A stretch of DNA of 64,000 bases from NCBI RefSeq assembly GCF_001429285.1, contig NZ_LMJJ01000040.1:62035-126034 (forward strand). Reading direction: 5' to 3'. How positions within the stretch are numbered: the first letter of the stretch is position 1; every line of letters starts with the position of its first letter. Below, piece after piece: positions 3 to 13,596 of this stretch. A program made the position numbers and the translations under genes. The notes below the pieces were generated by a model. It had not been told where the DNA came from, did not search any database, and was given only the letters and a program-made list of their open reading frames with translations. This DNA comes from Ensifer sp. Root278. Lineage in GTDB: Bacteria; Pseudomonadota; Alphaproteobacteria; Rhizobiales; Rhizobiaceae.

Positions 3-1085
3 ACTCTTCAGAATTTTGACGCGGAGATCGAGAAGACGAAAGGCGTCGTCGAACAGATGCGCGGCAAGCTCGAGCAATCCGGTGTCGTGCTGGAGCAATT
101 CGCCAAGGCCGAGACCAAGCTCGGCGACGTCAACTTCGACATCGAGAACGCCCGCATCCAGGATGTGATCAACCAGCAGAAGGTGATGGAAGCCAACATT
201 GCCGACCTGATCATCGGCCTTGAAGATGCGACCAATGTCTTCGGCTCCGAATTCGAGAGCATGAAGAACTATACCGGCTATGAGAAGTTCATCGGCATCT
301 TCTCCAAGCAGAAGATGCAGCGCATGCGCACCGACCGCGTGCGTAACATGTCGCTTGCCGGCAACCTGCAGGAGCTGCTGTCGAAATCCGACATGATCGT
401 CGGCATTCTCAAGGAGCAGAAGTCGATCCTCGACCAGCGCTACAAGACCTCGGAGCAGAGCTTGATCCAGGTGATCGAGCGCCGCAAGGGTACGATGGCG
501 AACCTCGAAGAGGTGCAGAAGCGCATCGAGGAACTGAACCCCCTGCTGCTCGACATCGAAAACCGCATTGCCGCCTCCACGGAGCAGAAGGTCCGCACCG
601 AGCTCGAAGGCGAACGCTCGGCGCTTGCCACCGAATACAACGAGAAGCAGGCCAAGGAACAGGAGCTGCTCGCCGAGAGCCAGACGCTCGAACGCTACAC
701 CGCGATGTTCCAGACCTTCGTCGATTCGCTCAACAACCAGATCGCCGCGCAGAACACGCTGATCAACAAGCTGACGATCGATACCGAACAGCGCATCGTG
801 CTCTACAAGGCGCTGGAAGACTCCTTGAAGACGGCTGCCCAGCAGGATGTCGCCCACAAGATCAACACGCTCGGCAGCCAGGTCGACACCGCCGCCGAAG
901 AGACGATGGCCGGCATCGGTGCCGCTGCGCAGCGCCATATCGGCGATCTCCTCGAAATGCATGAAAAGAACATGCTTTCGACGCAGGATATCCAGCGCCG
1001 CAAGAAGCTGGCGGACGACGCCTTTGCCCGTCGCTTCCAGGCTGTCATGGACAAGCACAACACTGCCAACTACGTGAAGCAGTGA
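3..1085 (+). CDS. Coiled-coil protein of unknown function, 5'-truncated by the window edge
   Basis: The reading frame is open from the first complete codon at position 3, so the true start lies upstream. The 360 visible codons are rich in Glu, Gln, Lys, Ala and Leu, with long heptad-like stretches and no membrane segment, so this is a soluble, mostly helical coiled-coil protein. The general architecture recalls TelA-type (toxic-anion-resistance) helical proteins, but I do not see a diagnostic motif and do not assign it. It heads a five-gene run, with 58 nt to the next gene, that contains an AAA+ ATPase and a membrane-anchored protein. A scaffold or adaptor role for that ATPase is an inference only. 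Confidence 0.75.
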   Translation, partial: TLQNFDAEIEKTKGVVEQMRGKLEQSGVVLEQFAKAETKLGDVNFDIENARIQDVINQQKVMEANIADLIIGLEDATNVFGSEFESMKNYTGYEKFIGIFSKQKMQRMRTDRVRNMSLAGNLQELLSKSDMIVGILKEQKSILDQRYKTSEQSLIQVIERRKGTMANLEEVQKRIEELNPLLLDIENRIAASTEQKVRTELEGERSALATEYNEKQAKEQELLAESQTLERYTAMFQTFVDSLNNQIAAQNTLINKLTIDTEQRIVLYKALEDSLKTAAQQDVAHKINTLGSQVDTAAEETMAGIGAAAQRHIGDLLEMHEKNMLSTQDIQRRKKLADDAFARRFQAVMDKHNTANYVKQ

Positions 1086-1143
1086 TCGGCAGGCGAATGA
1101 TCGGAACCGAGTTTGCCGTCTGGCACGCGCCACGGGGATTTGC

Positions 1144-2292
1144 ATGAAAGTCGCGGCTTCATCCGCTGTCGCACAATATTTCGCGTCGATCCACGCCGCA
1201 CTCGCCGGGCTCGAGCTCTTTCTCGGCGACCGCAACTCGCCGCTCTATCGCAACACCGTCGTCGGCGAAGTGATCGTCCCCTATCTCGGCCGGTTGAAGG
1301 CGTCGATCGACTGCTGGGAGAACCGCATCGGCTTCGTCGATCAGTTCCGGATCTCGCGCGCCGAAAGCGGTTTTCCGGTGTTCCAGAACGTGCTGGAACT
1401 GGAGAACGATCGCCAGACGGCGGCAAAGCGCCTCGCCGACATTCCCACGGCCGATGCGCTGAGGGACGAGATGGTCGATTTCATCCTCCGTCAGAAGGCC
1501 TTTCCCGAGGCGTTGCAGACGCGCATCGCCGAGCGGCTCTATCTGGAGCAGATCGGCAAGGGTGAGATCTTCTCGCCCTTTATCTTGCCGGAGACCATCC
1601 GCGTCGCCGTCAATTCCAAGACGATGCGTCCCTATTACATCGTGAGCTGGGGCGCCTTCGACGGCGCCAATACCCTGCCGATGGTCTACATGGCGACGAT
1701 CGAGGATTCCTCCGAGAAGATCGTCGAGATGCTGGTGACCGAGGACGGCAAGCTCAATCCGCAGGTCGAGATCCCGTTGCCGGTTGGTGGTTTGCTCAAT
1801 CCAGATCTCGCCAGCCGCTTCGACGATTTCGCCTCCAAGAACAGCAGCTATTCGCTGACCCCGGTGACGATCGCGACCAATCTCGACAAGGATTTTGACG
1901 AGCTCCATCCGAAGCAGCTGCGCCGCATCGTGCTCGGCCCGTTCTATTCTGCCGGGATCACCGAGAACAATGCGCGCATCAACGACATCCTCTCCAAGGT
2001 GCGAAAGACCGAGAATGCCTGGCTTCTGACCTGGACCGTGCAGGAGGTCTTCTCCAAGGCCGAAAGGCCCGCCAAACGCGGCTTCTGGTCATCGACGCCG
2101 GCGCAGGAGGAGTTCCACATCGATACCGCCAATCTGGAAGCGGCGCGCATGGGTGTCTCCTCCTACGAGAAGCACGCGCTGGTGCCGCACGACGCCTATC
2201 AGGCGCTCTATGCCGCCGGCGAGGCCGAACAGGTGTTCGGCGACTACAAGGTCCACGTCATTTCCGGCAACCAGGTCGTAAGCGAGGTTTGA
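1144..2292 (+). CDS. Conserved hypothetical protein of the AAA-ATPase operon
   Basis: A 382-residue soluble protein with no signal peptide or membrane segment and no motif I recognise. The ATG at 1144 gives an N-terminus beginning MKVAASSAVAQY. The first ~130 residues look helical. The rest is mixed and includes aromatic stretches such as RPYYIVSWGAFDG. Its TGA stop (2290-2292) lies 2 nt before the ATG of the downstream ATPase gene, so the two are almost certainly co-transcribed and probably translationally coupled. Function is unknown. A substrate or regulatory partner of the ATPase is the simplest guess from context. Confidence 0.8.
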   Translation: MKVAASSAVAQYFASIHAALAGLELFLGDRNSPLYRNTVVGEVIVPYLGRLKASIDCWENRIGFVDQFRISRAESGFPVFQNVLELENDRQTAAKRLADIPTADALRDEMVDFILRQKAFPEALQTRIAERLYLEQIGKGEIFSPFILPETIRVAVNSKTMRPYYIVSWGAFDGANTLPMVYMATIEDSSEKIVEMLVTEDGKLNPQVEIPLPVGGLLNPDLASRFDDFASKNSSYSLTPVTIATNLDKDFDELHPKQLRRIVLGPFYSAGITENNARINDILSKVRKTENAWLLTWTVQEVFSKAERPAKRGFWSSTPAQEEFHIDTANLEAARMGVSSYEKHALVPHDAYQALYAAGEAEQVFGDYKVHVISGNQVVSEV

Positions 2293-2294
2293 CG

Positions 2295-4214
2295 ATGACA
2301 CTCAATACGGGGCTGACGACGCTGCACGAGGACGACATCGCCAAGCATCAGGCGGTGGCGCAGGGGCTGGTGACGAAGCTCATCATTCTGGAGCGCGAGG
2401 ATGCATCCGCCGGGACGACGCTTGCCGGCACCGGCCGCCGCTTCGTCTCGACGGTTTCGACCGGTGGCCAGCGGCGCACACGCGAAGTCGAGCTGACCAA
2501 GACCATTCAGTCAGTGCGCCAAGGCGATCCGATGTTGTCGCCGGCCCAGCACGCCGTGCTTTATCGCACACGCCGCGGTATTCAGGTGGCGCTCGCCGTG
2601 GCCGACGTCTTTGCGCGGCAGACAAACCTCGAGCAACTGCAGGCGAAAAACGCCACATCGCCGCTCGGAGGAGATGAGGCCAACCAGTTCAAGGCGCTGC
2701 TTTCGGCGTCTGCCTATGTCGCCGCGTTTACGCTTGCCGCCTATCTCGGCTCGACGCTTTCAGGTGAGGGCGAGCCGGTGGACGATGCGGTCGAGCCCGA
2801 CTTTCTGTTCGACACGCCGCAGGACGCATTGAAGAGCCTCATCTCGGCGCTCGACCACGGCATTGCCGGGGCGCCTGACGATCTGGCGCTGACCGCCCGG
2901 GCGCGCGCCTTTTCGCGCGTGGCAGTCGAGGGGTTGATCGCGCGCAAGGCGCGGTTCACTGGACTGCAGAGCTTCGAGACCGTGCATATCCGGCTCGACC
3001 AGGACGATTTCACGCTGAACGGCTTCGATGTCGCACCGGGCCAGAAGCGCAAGCCGCTGGTGATGACCTTCAAGAAGCCCGAGGAGATCATCGGCAACCA
3101 CATTGCCAAGTACCAGGCGTTGAAGCTTGCCAAGATGCTGATGGCCTATGACTTCGACCGGCAGATGAACCCCTTCGTCGAGCTTGGCGGCTTCCTCTTC
3201 ACCTTCATCGGCGACGGCATGCCGGGCACCGGCAAGACGATCCTGATCCAGATGCTCGCCGGCATGCTCAACGAATATTGCGAGATTGCCGGCTACGCCT
3301 TCCATTACGAGAATTTCGGCGTTGACCAGATCTCCTCCTATCAGGGCAAATCGGGCCAGAACTGCAAGGAGTTCGTCAACAACGTCATCAACCCGCGCGC
3401 GATCGGCTTCGGCACGATCGACGATGTCGACCAGGTGGCGGCGAAGCGCTCCGACGATCGCGCTTCCGCCGGCCAGCATGAGGTGACGGCGGTGCTGATG
3501 GAGAGCTTCGCCGGTGCTTCGACGGTGGTGCGCGGCAATTGCACCTTCGGCATGTTCTCCAACTACCCTGAGAATGTCGACGATGCGCTGCGCCAGCGCG
3601 CCGGCGCCCGCTGGCTGGTCGACGGGCCGCAGACGGAAGACGATTATATCGACATCTTCGCGCTGCTCGTCGGCAAGAACCACAAGATCCCGCTCGGCGA
3701 ACACCAATTGTTCGAGGGGCAGGAGATCAAGCGGGCCGTGTCGCAATCCTATGCCGAGCACGCGCGGCCGAAGGAGGATGGCCTCATCGCCGTCTGGGAG
3801 CGTTACCAGAAGGAACGCGGCACGCTCGCCTCGCTCGCCGATGTCGGCGCCTATCTGCACATGATCAAGGAGGCCGAGCCGCGTTTTACCGGCCGCGCGA
3901 TCAAGAACATCACCGATGCGATCAAGCTGCGCGCCATGGACGTCGAGCTGCCGGATGACTGGTTCAGGGATGCCGGCTCGTTCATGCACAAGGGCTATGA
4001 CGAGAAGAAAACGATGATCGAGGCGCTACGCGGCCCGATCACCATCGAGATGGTGCTGCAGGAGATCAACCGCTACGCCGACAGCGAATTCCGCTACACC
4101 GACAAATCCGACGATGCTGCCGTCACCGACATCATCCGTCGCGAGCGTCAGCGCGAAAAGGCGATCCACGAGATCGAGGCGATGAAGCGCGACGGCCGGT
4201 GGCAGGGGTTATGA
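2295..4214 (+). CDS. AAA+ family ATPase of the unknown five-gene operon
   Basis: A 639-residue protein with one AAA+ module. The Walker A motif GDGMPGTGKT is at about residues 306-315 and the Walker B-like GTIDDVD at about 373-379. A pore-loop-like YENFGVDQ follows Walker A. A sensor-1/arginine-finger segment (FSNYPENVDDALRQR) resembles the second region of homology of classical AAA proteins. About 300 N-terminal residues have no recognised domain. I chose ATG 2295, 7 nt after a GAGG motif, over an in-frame TTG at 2289. It probably acts as an ATP-driven remodelling motor. Its substrate is unknown, and its tight packing with neighbours suggests a dedicated complex. Confidence 0.85.
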   Translation: MTLNTGLTTLHEDDIAKHQAVAQGLVTKLIILEREDASAGTTLAGTGRRFVSTVSTGGQRRTREVELTKTIQSVRQGDPMLSPAQHAVLYRTRRGIQVALAVADVFARQTNLEQLQAKNATSPLGGDEANQFKALLSASAYVAAFTLAAYLGSTLSGEGEPVDDAVEPDFLFDTPQDALKSLISALDHGIAGAPDDLALTARARAFSRVAVEGLIARKARFTGLQSFETVHIRLDQDDFTLNGFDVAPGQKRKPLVMTFKKPEEIIGNHIAKYQALKLAKMLMAYDFDRQMNPFVELGGFLFTFIGDGMPGTGKTILIQMLAGMLNEYCEIAGYAFHYENFGVDQISSYQGKSGQNCKEFVNNVINPRAIGFGTIDDVDQVAAKRSDDRASAGQHEVTAVLMESFAGASTVVRGNCTFGMFSNYPENVDDALRQRAGARWLVDGPQTEDDYIDIFALLVGKNHKIPLGEHQLFEGQEIKRAVSQSYAEHARPKEDGLIAVWERYQKERGTLASLADVGAYLHMIKEAEPRFTGRAIKNITDAIKLRAMDVELPDDWFRDAGSFMHKGYDEKKTMIEALRGPITIEMVLQEINRYADSEFRYTDKSDDAAVTDIIRRERQREKAIHEIEAMKRDGRWQGL

Positions 4215-4230
4215 TGGGAAGAGCTGACCG

Positions 4231-5520
4231 ATGAAACGCTTGCTCGAAGCCGAGCTCATCTATGGACGGCTGCTCGATGTCTCCGAGCCGCACCTGATCG
4301 CGCGTTACAACAAGGCACTCGAAGGCTTCGGCCTGCGCCCGACGGCGTTGACGGCGTTCAGCATCGACATGACCGGGTTTTCGCCCGAAATCGCTGACGA
4401 ACTGGGTGACCGTGATTATCTCGATCCGAACCGGGTCAACCGCCGGTTCATCATCATGACACCGGATCAGGCGGAGCTGCCGGTCGTGCATACGAGCTTC
4501 TCCAATACGGCGGCGCTGATGCACGAATTCTTCAACGCCAACGGCCGCGCGATCAATGCGATCACGATCAAGGACGCGCTCTACGGCGAGATCGAGGATT
4601 CGGTTTCGGTCGTCGACGACATCGACGACCTGCTGTCGATCAACGAGGTGCGTTTCCGGGTGCTGTCGGCCGAGGACATGCTCGGCAAGGCCGCCGAACT
4701 CAGGGGCCTCGTCGACCGGCTGAAGAAAGTGCCGACGGCCTGGGCCGACGACGAGATGCTGAACCGCATGGTCGAGCTTGCCAAGCTCACCGGCGATATC
4801 CGCCAGAATGCGCTGGTGCCGGACCAGCTCGTCTTCCGCCACGAAGCCTTCTGGGCCAATCATTTCGGGGGCGTCTATGTCTTTCTCGACGACAAGACGA
4901 CGACCGTGATCTGCGACCCCTCGGTCCCCGGCTTCCGCCGCTCGCGGCCATGGCAGGTCAGCTATATCGCCATCAACGATCATGCCCGGATCTACGACTT
5001 CCTCGCCTCGACCAAGCGGCTGCAATTGCCACAGGCGTCCTGGGTGGAGGAGTCGGGGCTCTATCAGCACCGGGCCGACATGATCGTGCGCGGGCTGATC
5101 GACGAAATTGACCCGACGGCCGATCTCGCCAATGCCGACCGGATCTGGCTGCAGACCTGGATGCACCGCAATGCGGCTGTCGTCGCGAGGGACGGGGCCT
5201 ATCCGTTCCTGCAGGAGATGATCCGCATGGTTGCCGCGACCGGCACGATCAAGATGCAGGACGTGGCGCCGGCGAACCGCTTCATGCTGGTGCGCGCAGC
5301 ACCCACCCATCCCGACCAGTGGCTGGTCAACCGACTGATTTCCCAGCTCGTGCCCCGCGATTTCGTCTCGCGCTTCGTCTTCGACAAGCAGGGTTTCTAC
5401 GACGCCTACGAGCGCTATGGCGAAAGCTTCAAGGCCTATGTTGTGGCGACGCTGACGGGTTCATATCTCAAGGACAAGGCGGCCTTCCGCCACAAGCTTT
5501 ACGGCCTCAGAGAGGAATAG
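4231..5520 (+). CDS. Conserved hypothetical protein of the AAA-ATPase operon
   Basis: A 429-residue soluble protein without signal peptide, membrane segment or recognised motif. It starts 16 nt after the ATPase gene and ends 3 nt before the DUF2333-type gene, so it belongs to the same transcription unit. The composition is acidic to neutral, with many aromatic residues and alternating predicted helices and strands. Phrases such as LPVVHTSFSNTAALMHEFFN suggest a globular enzyme-like fold, but I cannot name a family. Its fixed place between an ATPase and a membrane-anchored protein makes it a candidate bridging component. Confidence 0.8.
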   Translation: MKRLLEAELIYGRLLDVSEPHLIARYNKALEGFGLRPTALTAFSIDMTGFSPEIADELGDRDYLDPNRVNRRFIIMTPDQAELPVVHTSFSNTAALMHEFFNANGRAINAITIKDALYGEIEDSVSVVDDIDDLLSINEVRFRVLSAEDMLGKAAELRGLVDRLKKVPTAWADDEMLNRMVELAKLTGDIRQNALVPDQLVFRHEAFWANHFGGVYVFLDDKTTTVICDPSVPGFRRSRPWQVSYIAINDHARIYDFLASTKRLQLPQASWVEESGLYQHRADMIVRGLIDEIDPTADLANADRIWLQTWMHRNAAVVARDGAYPFLQEMIRMVAATGTIKMQDVAPANRFMLVRAAPTHPDQWLVNRLISQLVPRDFVSRFVFDKQGFYDAYERYGESFKAYVVATLTGSYLKDKAAFRHKLYGLREE

Positions 5521-5523
5521 GAC

Positions 5524-6747
5524 ATGTTCGATCCGATCGTTGCGTTTTTCCAGCGGGTCTTTACCGCGATCGGCCGCGGCATAGGTCTCGCCGTTGCCTG
5601 GCTGCTCTGGCCGTTCGTCGCGGCCGGTAACTGGTATCGGCAGCGGAGCTGGATCATCAAAGGACCAATCGGCATCGTTCTGCTCGGCCTCATCTTCCTC
5701 TACGGCTATTTCATCTGGCAGACGCAGGCCTGGACGAACTTCGATCCTGACTATGTCGAGCGTTACAAGCTGGCCGAGCACAAGGTGCCGGCGGGCTCGC
5801 CGAAGAGCGGCCCGGGCGCGACGACCGGCCAATCGACGACCGGTGCGGCGGCAACCAACCTTGCGGCGGCGGCTGCACCGCAGACCGAATCGACACCGGA
5901 GGCGCTGGCGGTGGTGCAATTGCCTGCCGGTACCGTGTGCCAGACCTCGGCAATCGTCGATGTCGCCGCCGACCTTATCGATTACAATGTCAACGAGAAT
6001 GCGTGGATATCGTCGATGCTGCTCTACAAGCTCGGTTTCTTCGGGCTTGACTGGGACGACACGCCCTGGCTCGACAACAAGGCGTCGTTCCAGCGCGGCA
6101 TCAACCAGGCGGTGCGCCGCACCTCGGTCGAGCTGGTCGATTCGCTTGGTCGCGTGCGCGGCACGTCCGGCATCAACAGCGACCTGCAGAGTGCGCGCGG
6201 CAATATCCAGTTCGATGAGGAGACCTGGTATTTCGGCCTGAACCCCTTTGGCCCGAAGACGCCGACGCCGAGCTTCTACCGGGCGGCGATGAAGGACCTC
6301 AGGGCCTTCAACATCTCGCTCGGCAAATGCGAAGCGATCTTCGACGGCCGCTCCGACAACCTCGTCGAATTCCTCGACCGTGTTGCCAACGATCTCGGCA
6401 ACACCTCGGCGATCATTCGCGAACGGTCGGAAAACCACAATGGCGGCTGGTTCGACACGCGCGCCGACGACCGCTTCTGGTTCGCCTATGGCCAGCTCTA
6501 CGGTTATTACGGCATTCTGTCGGCCGCCGGCGCCGACTTCGACAACGTCGTTGCCCAGCGCGGCCTGACGCCGATCTGGACGGAGACGATCAAGCAACTG
6601 CGCGCCGCATTGCGCATCCAGCCGCTGATCATCTCCAACGGCGAGGAGGCCGGCTGGATCATGCCGACGCATCTGGCGACGATGGGCTTCTATACGCTGA
6701 GGGTACGCTCGAACATCGTCGAAATGCGCGATATCCTCGCCCGATAG
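5524..6747 (+). CDS. DUF2333-family membrane-anchored protein
   Basis: A 407-residue protein. The N-terminal ~65 residues carry a hydrophobic helix (about 17-34) and a clear transmembrane segment near residues 46-65 (GPIGIVLLGLIFLYGYFIW). An Ala/Thr/Gly-rich linker (~85-125) follows, then a soluble domain of ~280 residues, probably periplasmic. The domain order and phrases such as NENAWISSMLLYKLGFFGLDWDD fit the DUF2333 family, for which I know no function. It is the last gene of the five-gene run, so it probably tethers the complex to the inner membrane. I saw no strong terminator directly after it. Confidence 0.8.
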   Translation: MFDPIVAFFQRVFTAIGRGIGLAVAWLLWPFVAAGNWYRQRSWIIKGPIGIVLLGLIFLYGYFIWQTQAWTNFDPDYVERYKLAEHKVPAGSPKSGPGATTGQSTTGAAATNLAAAAAPQTESTPEALAVVQLPAGTVCQTSAIVDVAADLIDYNVNENAWISSMLLYKLGFFGLDWDDTPWLDNKASFQRGINQAVRRTSVELVDSLGRVRGTSGINSDLQSARGNIQFDEETWYFGLNPFGPKTPTPSFYRAAMKDLRAFNISLGKCEAIFDGRSDNLVEFLDRVANDLGNTSAIIRERSENHNGGWFDTRADDRFWFAYGQLYGYYGILSAAGADFDNVVAQRGLTPIWTETIKQLRAALRIQPLIISNGEEAGWIMPTHLATMGFYTLRVRSNIVEMRDILAR

Positions 6748-13483: not shown

Positions 13484-13528
13484 ATGGAAAATGCACGCAA
13501 CATTTCGACCTGGTGGTGGGCTCGCTGA
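13484..13528 (+). CDS. trpL: trp operon leader peptide with three consecutive Trp codons
   Basis: The 14-codon ORF encodes MENARNISTWWWAR and then TGA. The three tandem Trp codons are the sensor of a classical attenuator: ribosome stalling during Trp shortage favours the antiterminator and lets transcription enter trpE(G). It is very similar in length and ending to the S. meliloti trpL peptide. In that species the terminated leader RNA (rnTrpL) and the peptide also have reported trans roles. The ORF is too short for routine gene callers. No ribosome site precedes it. Confidence 0.9.
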   Translation: MENARNISTWWWAR

Positions 13529-13563
13529 AGCGGCCTTGACCAGTCATGCGTGATTGAGAGATG

Positions 13564-13596
13564 AAGCCGCCCGGAGATTTCGAGGCGGCTTTTTTC
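13564..13596 (+). terminator. trp attenuator terminator
   Basis: AAGCCGCC (13564-13571) pairs with GGCGGCTT (13584-13591), and TTTT follows. It lies 36 nt after the trpL stop and 45 nt before trpE(G). The 13529-13563 segment includes AGTCATGCGTGATT, a weak hairpin that can form competing pairings, as needed for an attenuator. Confidence 0.85.

Follow-up and report, generated by a model that had tools for sequence, protein, structure and literature searches.

The window analysed here is a stretch of 64,000 nucleotides (nt) from Ensifer sp. Root278, and the five genes at its left end, g1 to g5, all on the + strand, are built around g3, which encodes a classical AAA ATPase. The genes g1-g4 form a four-gene core unit; g5 lies outside the core and is its exchangeable membrane partner. 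An earlier note made from the letters alone had proposed a five-gene operon for a membrane-linked remodelling machine. The dedicated, uncharacterised AAA-based set stands, while the single five-gene unit does not, since the core has four genes and g5 can be exchanged. It is plausible, if still short of probable, that g1-g4 encode one machine in which a g3 ring and its adaptors act on membrane-attached g1 through residues 274-325, and 'remodelling' would then be the work of that ring.

The core was examined in 101 loci, namely the window's own, 20 picked by g4 (a DUF6638 protein) and 80 picked by similarity to g3; L046 and L088 are the same contig, which leaves 100 distinct loci. All 101 carry g1, g2, g3 and g4 on one strand and in one order. 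The neighbourhood, whose conservation the earlier note had left to be checked, is kept in every distinct locus and also outside Alphaproteobacteria. On a V. vulnificus megaplasmid g1-g4 are found in order by profile (E 6e-96, 6e-78, 2e-203 and 2e-80). Four Vibrio plasmid records hold g3, and in the two regions read it is flanked by genes of matching size. The megaplasmid pRlX5 of R. leguminosarum (L193) carries diverged g1-g4, and the next open reading frame (ORF) there resembles a sigma-70 factor by eye.

Since g3 or g4 served to select these loci, linkage is tested more fairly by the phyletic profile. The g4 family is over its cut-off in seven of 289 genomes of the class sample, with an eighth, G210, below the cut-off, and separate searches for g2 and for g1 each return seven of 289, the same seven as g4. 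The phylum sample has g4 in 24 of 299 genomes; of the 25 other genomes above the DUF6638 cut-off in the class and phylum samples, 20 were read over wide stretches. g2 is present in 18 of 120 genomes of the window's order, about one in seven, and in one of 184 genomes of a sample from another class, that one being the sample's centre genome. The distribution of the core is patchy across the genome samples. The window's contig is 855 kb long and the genome 7.1 Mb; the closest relatives fetched for this genome are Ensifer, with g3 at 96% identity in E. adhaerens ST2 and E. sesbaniae. A close-relative search finds no g4 relative in viral contigs.

The gene that follows g4 encodes a DUF2333 protein in 86 of the 101 loci (85 distinct) and a DUF1523 protein in 15, with both in none. 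DUF1523 is identified by phmmer in the 15 loci and by Pfam in three of them (7e-68, 2e-44 and 4e-67); a small extra protein accompanies it in 13 of the 15, and the one that was scanned has two transmembrane (TM) segments. Core loci with DUF2333 are nearly all from Hyphomicrobiales, and L094 and L096 are metagenome-assembled genomes labelled otherwise. Among the 120 order genomes g2 is found in 18, DUF2333 in 24 and both in 15 (Fisher 1.8e-10, shared ancestry ignored). In all 15 the two genes are at most 6 kb apart, in G809 via a partial g2 match at a contig end. The three g2 genomes lacking DUF2333 are two with DUF1523 (L044 and L189) and one whose locus ends at a contig edge (L188).

DUF2333 as a member of the core is excluded by its replacement by DUF1523 and by its wide spread, since it is found in 85 of the 289 class genomes, far more than have the core. 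Among the matches listed for the seven core genomes of that sample it appears in three: in the window's genome it adjoins the core, and G179 and G283 carry it on a separate contig. Twelve stand-alone DUF2333 loci chosen among the 85 genomes were read, and g1-g4 are in none of them. Six of the 12 have a common upstream gene order, which in L162 consists of GlnD, MurJ and a TrpS-type synthetase. In L184, L187 and L192 the stand-alone DUF2333 gene adjoins a large ORF, which matches DUF4175 in L187 (1e-246) and looks alike by eye in the other two.

g5 had been described from the letters as a DUF2333-type membrane-anchored protein. Pfam gives DUF2333 at 5e-18 (65.5 bits against a gathering score of 22), and hydropathy gives one clear TM segment. 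Two cysteines, Cys139 and Cys269, are both present in all 18 g1-linked DUF2333 proteins aligned (16 of the 86, and those of L180 and L194 described below) and both are absent from all 12 stand-alone proteins. Each of the 86 operon copies has two or more cysteines after residue 100; among the 12, L173 has two there, placed elsewhere, and L165 one. The pair is gained or lost jointly, suggesting a disulphide and thus a g5 domain outside the cytoplasm, and the TM segment at 47-65 fits this topology. The outside domain of g5 is probably closed by a disulphide.

Two Rhizobiaceae provide a natural experiment in which g1 and the membrane partner stand without g2-g4. In L180 (genome G322) thymidine kinase, a diverged g1 (g1', 31% identical) and DUF2333 lie in a row; G322 has no g4 and no g2, and no g3 is present in the 18-kb stretch where it was sought. 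In L194 (R. leguminosarum plasmid pSK03) the order is choV, choW, a choline-binding protein gene, tdk, g1' and DUF2333, with formate-tetrahydrofolate ligase five genes past DUF2333; pSK03 is absent from the records that hold g3 or g2, the rest of the strain's genome not having been searched. In S. meliloti Ak57 the order is choV, choW, tdk, g1, g2, g3, an endonuclease gene and ISRm16, and onward a 429-amino-acid (aa) protein in the place of g4, DUF2333 and formate-tetrahydrofolate ligase. Comparison of the three gene orders places the missing g2-g4 as a block between retained genes. The g1' proteins of L194 and L180 are 88.5% identical, and the synonymous (dS) and nonsynonymous (dN) distances between the two loci are 0.30 and 0.056 for g1' (dN/dS about 0.19) and 0.43 and 0.031 for DUF2333 (about 0.07). 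With such low ratios both genes look kept by purifying selection, and at this place g1 and DUF2333 seem to share a joint role without the ring.

The g1' proteins also point to the part of g1 that may face the ring. Sixty columns of g1 are invariant across 25 core-linked g1 proteins and the Vibrio one. Of those inside residues 274-325, g1' keeps one of 17, versus 24 of 43 elsewhere (Fisher 3.5e-4), and its 22-residue gap falls mostly inside the same segment; in residues 241-273 it keeps six of 10. The simplest reading is that segment 274-325 serves the g2-g3-g4 part of the system.

In the mechanism we propose, the g3 ring would thread or pull on g1, an elongated helical cytoplasmic protein, via this segment, and g2 and g4 would be dedicated adaptors or regulators of the ring. 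The exchangeable partner would tie g1, and so the ring too, to the inner membrane; it would be DUF2333 in Hyphomicrobiales and DUF1523 elsewhere, mostly with the small second protein. ATP-driven release would then let the ring disassemble or reset the assembly of g1 and membrane protein. Co-occurrence of the core, exchange of the partner, loci with g1 and DUF2333 without g2-g4, and loss of the g1 segment are shown by the comparison; everything physical is our inference, including the hexamer, the pulling on g1, the disassembly, the slow hydrolysis and the topology of g5. Envelope maintenance or stress is our guess at the physiological role.

Several points weigh against this mechanism. The bounds 274-325 were set after seeing the alignment, although a scan over all windows of these columns, run for that reason, speaks for the segment: it picks g1 276-322 (16 of 17 lost), with one of 200 permutations as extreme. 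The test of the segment uses two related sequences and hence one evolutionary event, and g1' keeps just two of seven invariant columns in residues 181-240. That g3 acts on g1 is itself a step beyond the alignment, and the binding partner of the segment could be g2 or g4 rather than g3. Nine of the 24 DUF2333 genomes of the order sample have no g2 match. Co-occurrence within the core is also imperfect, since G771 has no g2 match; its g4 and DUF2333 are adjacent on a 3.2-kb contig (L186), and the missing g2 is perhaps an assembly gap. Near the core neither DUF2333 nor DUF1523 is found in the Vibrio copy or in L193, so the membrane partner is not always adjacent.

A possible though unlikely alternative is that g1 is itself an adaptor or regulator and that g2-g4 act on another client, such as the membrane partner or some other envelope protein, with segment 274-325 merely docking g1. 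The data show that the segment goes with g2-g4 but not in which direction the action runs, and the persistence of g1' and DUF2333 at a locus without the ring implies that this pair has a job of its own. Nothing direct speaks against such a role; g1 is no less constant than g2 and g4, and the invariant block would be long for a simple docking motif.

Both remaining explanations are less likely than g1 as an adaptor. It is improbable that the set is an activase or chaperone, comparable to CbbX and the MoxR-type ATPases, that serves an enzyme or membrane protein and has DUF2333 or DUF1523 as its client. An AAA ring with dedicated partners and no detected protease domain fits this in outline, and the exchange of partners could mirror an exchange of clients, but these supposed clients match separate Pfam families and neither is seen close to two of the core copies, and the Pfam scan of the five operon proteins shows neither a VWA protein nor an enzyme as partner. 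More doubtful still is a defence or conflict system in which accessory genes serve an AAA effector module: g3 matches the TRIP13 profile of PADLOC (1.7e-6), toxin-antitoxin and DUF559 genes lie between g3 and g4 in many relatives and the distribution is patchy, but PADLOC gives nothing up to 0.01 for g1, g2, g4 and g5, g3 is in no phage record at E<=1e-5, the choline-transport/tdk and fhs flanks are the same in three loci (the window, Ak57 and pSK03), and the cargo between g3 and g4 varies by locus and is absent from the window.

The g3-g4 junction is an insertion hotspot in relatives of the window, for example at L052:12018-12437, L065:12161-12475, L066:12220-12645 and L121:7185-7631. Same-strand inserts identified by phmmer in the 101 loci encode DUF559 endonuclease-like proteins (26), ParE-like toxins (10) and HigA-like helix-turn-helix proteins (15). 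L121 has a PIN protein between g3 and g4, S. meliloti Ak57 has ISRm16 there, L034 has a DUF3825 protein (L034:8305-9126, 1.8e-8, by phmmer in that locus only), and L038-L040 share a different same-strand ORF family. A gene for an SPFH/Band 7 protein sits tightly between g1 and g2 in five of the 101 loci (L083:7630-8580, where Pfam gives 3e-29, L093, L107, L115 and L118), which is a hint of a further link to the membrane. One Pfam-scanned example stands behind each of the labels SPFH, toxin-antitoxin, PIN and DUF559, and phmmer was used as well for all of them except PIN.

g3 carries the Walker A motif and a pore-loop-like motif, as had been read from its letters. It matches PF00004 at 1e-10, and the patterns for Walker A, the pore-loop-like motif, sensor 1 (Asn) and the arginine finger are each present in all 102 copies (the 101 loci and Vibrio, 101 distinct). 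SYQGKSGQN, placed by position, is what we take to be pore loop 1. The Walker B motif claimed with them is also there, but with an Asp where the catalytic Glu usually stands: it reads D-D in place of D-E in all 102 copies, including L084, the one copy that the search pattern missed. This Asp aligns by profile with the Glu of the i-AAA protease 5ubv, and the genome's own FtsH has the common D-E form. g3 thus lacks the Walker B Glu, and its PF00004 membership by profile stands with a variant site. The invariant D-D suggests a slow, switch-like ATP hydrolysis; the second AAA domain of NSF has a similar D-D and slow hydrolysis, which we treat as a lead only. From its family g3 would be a hexameric classical AAA ring. 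About 290 residues precede the AAA domain, a long unassigned N-terminal region. A Pfam scan of the one sequence at E<=1 gives AAA, AAA_3 and NPHP3_N only, with no peptidase and no MIT domain, and a hydropathy scan finds no TM segment.

g1 has no TM segment, no Cys and one Pro. The coiled coil that the earlier note read in it is only a candidate feature. Its windowed heptad power is exceeded by eight of 300 shuffles, versus none of 300 for g3, and as g3 outscores g1 the measure is not specific; the whole-length periodicity of g1 is inside the shuffle range. The g1 profile against PDB sequences, among which are PspA and Vipp1 chains, gives two matches up to E=1, both of them GCN4 fusions and neither ESCRT-III. 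A likeness of g1 to TelA (PF05816), which we had presumed at first, is rejected by hhalign (probability 0.2 of 100, with only seven diverse rows on the TelA side) and by hmmsearch of the g1 profile against the ORFs of TelA loci (best E 0.13). TelA itself has no match in the host genome at E<=0.001.

g2 and g4 may have new folds or very distant ones, judging from their AlphaFold2 models, both of which are confident. For g2 the predicted local distance difference test score (pLDDT) is 89.3 and the predicted template-modelling score (pTM) 0.87, with a helical N-terminal part and a mixed alpha/beta C-terminal part; for g4 they are 86.4 and 0.81. Neither model has a PDB fold match at E<=0.001, and g2 has none at that level in a viral library (best 8.6e-3). 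Sequence comparison with the PDB gives nothing for g4 up to E=5 and weak matches only for g2, the best at 0.063. A relationship of g2 to g4 was tried by hhalign profile comparison and rejected.

The arrangement of five same-strand genes read from the letters is exact, with gaps of 58 (g1/g2), 2 (g2/g3), 16 (g3/g4) and 3 nt (g4/g5). The window edge cuts into g1, whose ATG is 4 nt further left. The earlier note had wanted the sequence further left looked at for more members; the start of g1 is found there, and no extra operon member is seen by eye among ORFs that were not family-searched. Those ORFs match the choline-transport and thymidine kinase genes of S. meliloti in the same annotated order. 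Family searches for each protein, also proposed there, place g3, g4 (DUF6638 at 8e-77, 259.3 bits against a gathering score of 27) and g5, and give no family above the Pfam cut-off for g1 and g2. All NCBIfam matches are below their own cut-offs, those of g3 including the CDC48 and PAN models, and PHROGs gives weak matches, four for g3 and one for g1. A match to a characterised complex, which the earlier note had named as grounds for refutation, is not found across Pfam, NCBIfam and PADLOC. A promoter scan gives 0 sites versus 1.5 in shuffles and a terminator scan 8 versus 5.5, nothing usable. Elsewhere in the window the small RNA RcsR1 is found at 13500-13595 (E 9e-19).

Coordinates of the five genes and of the features discussed, by window position
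Feature	Position (strand)	Basis or remark
g1, helical protein, 362 aa	1..1085 (+), stop at 1085	ORF scan; ATG at L003:11997
g1 residues 274-325, proposed grip site for the AAA ring	816..971 (+)	17 invariant columns
g2, soluble protein, 382 aa	1144..2292 (+)	No family above Pfam cut-off
g3, classical AAA ATPase, 639 aa	2295..4214 (+) from ATG; 2289 if TTG start	ORF and Pfam
g3 Walker A GDGMPGTGKT, residues 306-315	3210..3239 (+)	Pattern in 102/102 copies
g3 pore-loop-1-like SYQGKSGQN, residues 348-356	3336..3362 (+)	[SE]YQGKS in 102/102; assigned by position
g3 Walker B GFGTIDDVD, residues 371-379	3405..3431 (+)	Asp at catalytic Glu position
g4, DUF6638 protein, 429 aa	4231..5520 (+)	Pfam
g5, DUF2333 protein, 407 aa, clade-specific membrane partner	5524..6747 (+)	Pfam
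g5 transmembrane segment, residues 47-65	5662..5718 (+)	Hydropathy scan; one clear TM
g5 Cys139	5938..5940 (+)	Conserved pair in alignment
g5 Cys269	6328-6330	Conserved pair in alignment

The four-gene AAA machine is present in about one in seven sampled genomes of the order, in other Alphaproteobacteria and in some Vibrio, with no described function found. By its Pfam name each of DUF6638 (PF20343), DUF2333 (PF10095) and DUF1523 (PF07509) is a family of unknown function. Counting from choX, SMc02733 of S. meliloti would be g3. Passages of the open-access literature give no function for DUF6638, DUF2333, DUF1523 or the nine S. meliloti tags SMc02728-02736. Among such passages, one mentions DUF2333 as uncharacterised near a type VI secretion system gene (PMC5256989), and another lists an intragenic piece of SMc02733 from a screen for ChvI DNA binding (PMC3687685). 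The comparison makes of these uncharacterised genes a model that can be tested and that names the segment of interaction, and it may bear on whether bacteria own dedicated ATPases for membrane-bound scaffolds.

Among known systems, FtsH/i-AAA and CDC48-type proteins resemble g3 in the AAA cassette (CDC48 model 9e-6, below its cut-off; ATPase domain of 5ubv 9e-5). g3 differs from them in having no peptidase model, no TM segment, a D-D Walker B, a long unassigned N-terminal region and partners without a recognised fold. The likeness to TRIP13/Pch2 of the cyclic-oligonucleotide-based antiphage signalling system (CBASS) is confined to the AAA region, and no HORMA or CD-NTase match is present in the operon. 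ESCRT-III/Vps4 and PspA/Vipp1 are alike in the proposed working mode only, that of an AAA ring at work on a membrane-linked assembly of helical protein; sequence comparison does not detect ESCRT-III in g1, and no MIT model matches g3. A passage of PMC8281802 calls it unclear whether an ATPase plays the role of Vps4 for PspA or Vipp1, and the ESCRT comparison also draws on parts of PMC11746142. The boldest form of our proposal, which we consider unlikely but worth stating, is that the AAA ring and two new-fold adaptors would dismantle a membrane-bound helical g1 scaffold that is linked through the inner membrane to an outside domain open to exchange, at a pace set by a slow D-D site, and would be a counterpart of Vps4/ESCRT-III or NSF/SNAP in working mode, not in ancestry.

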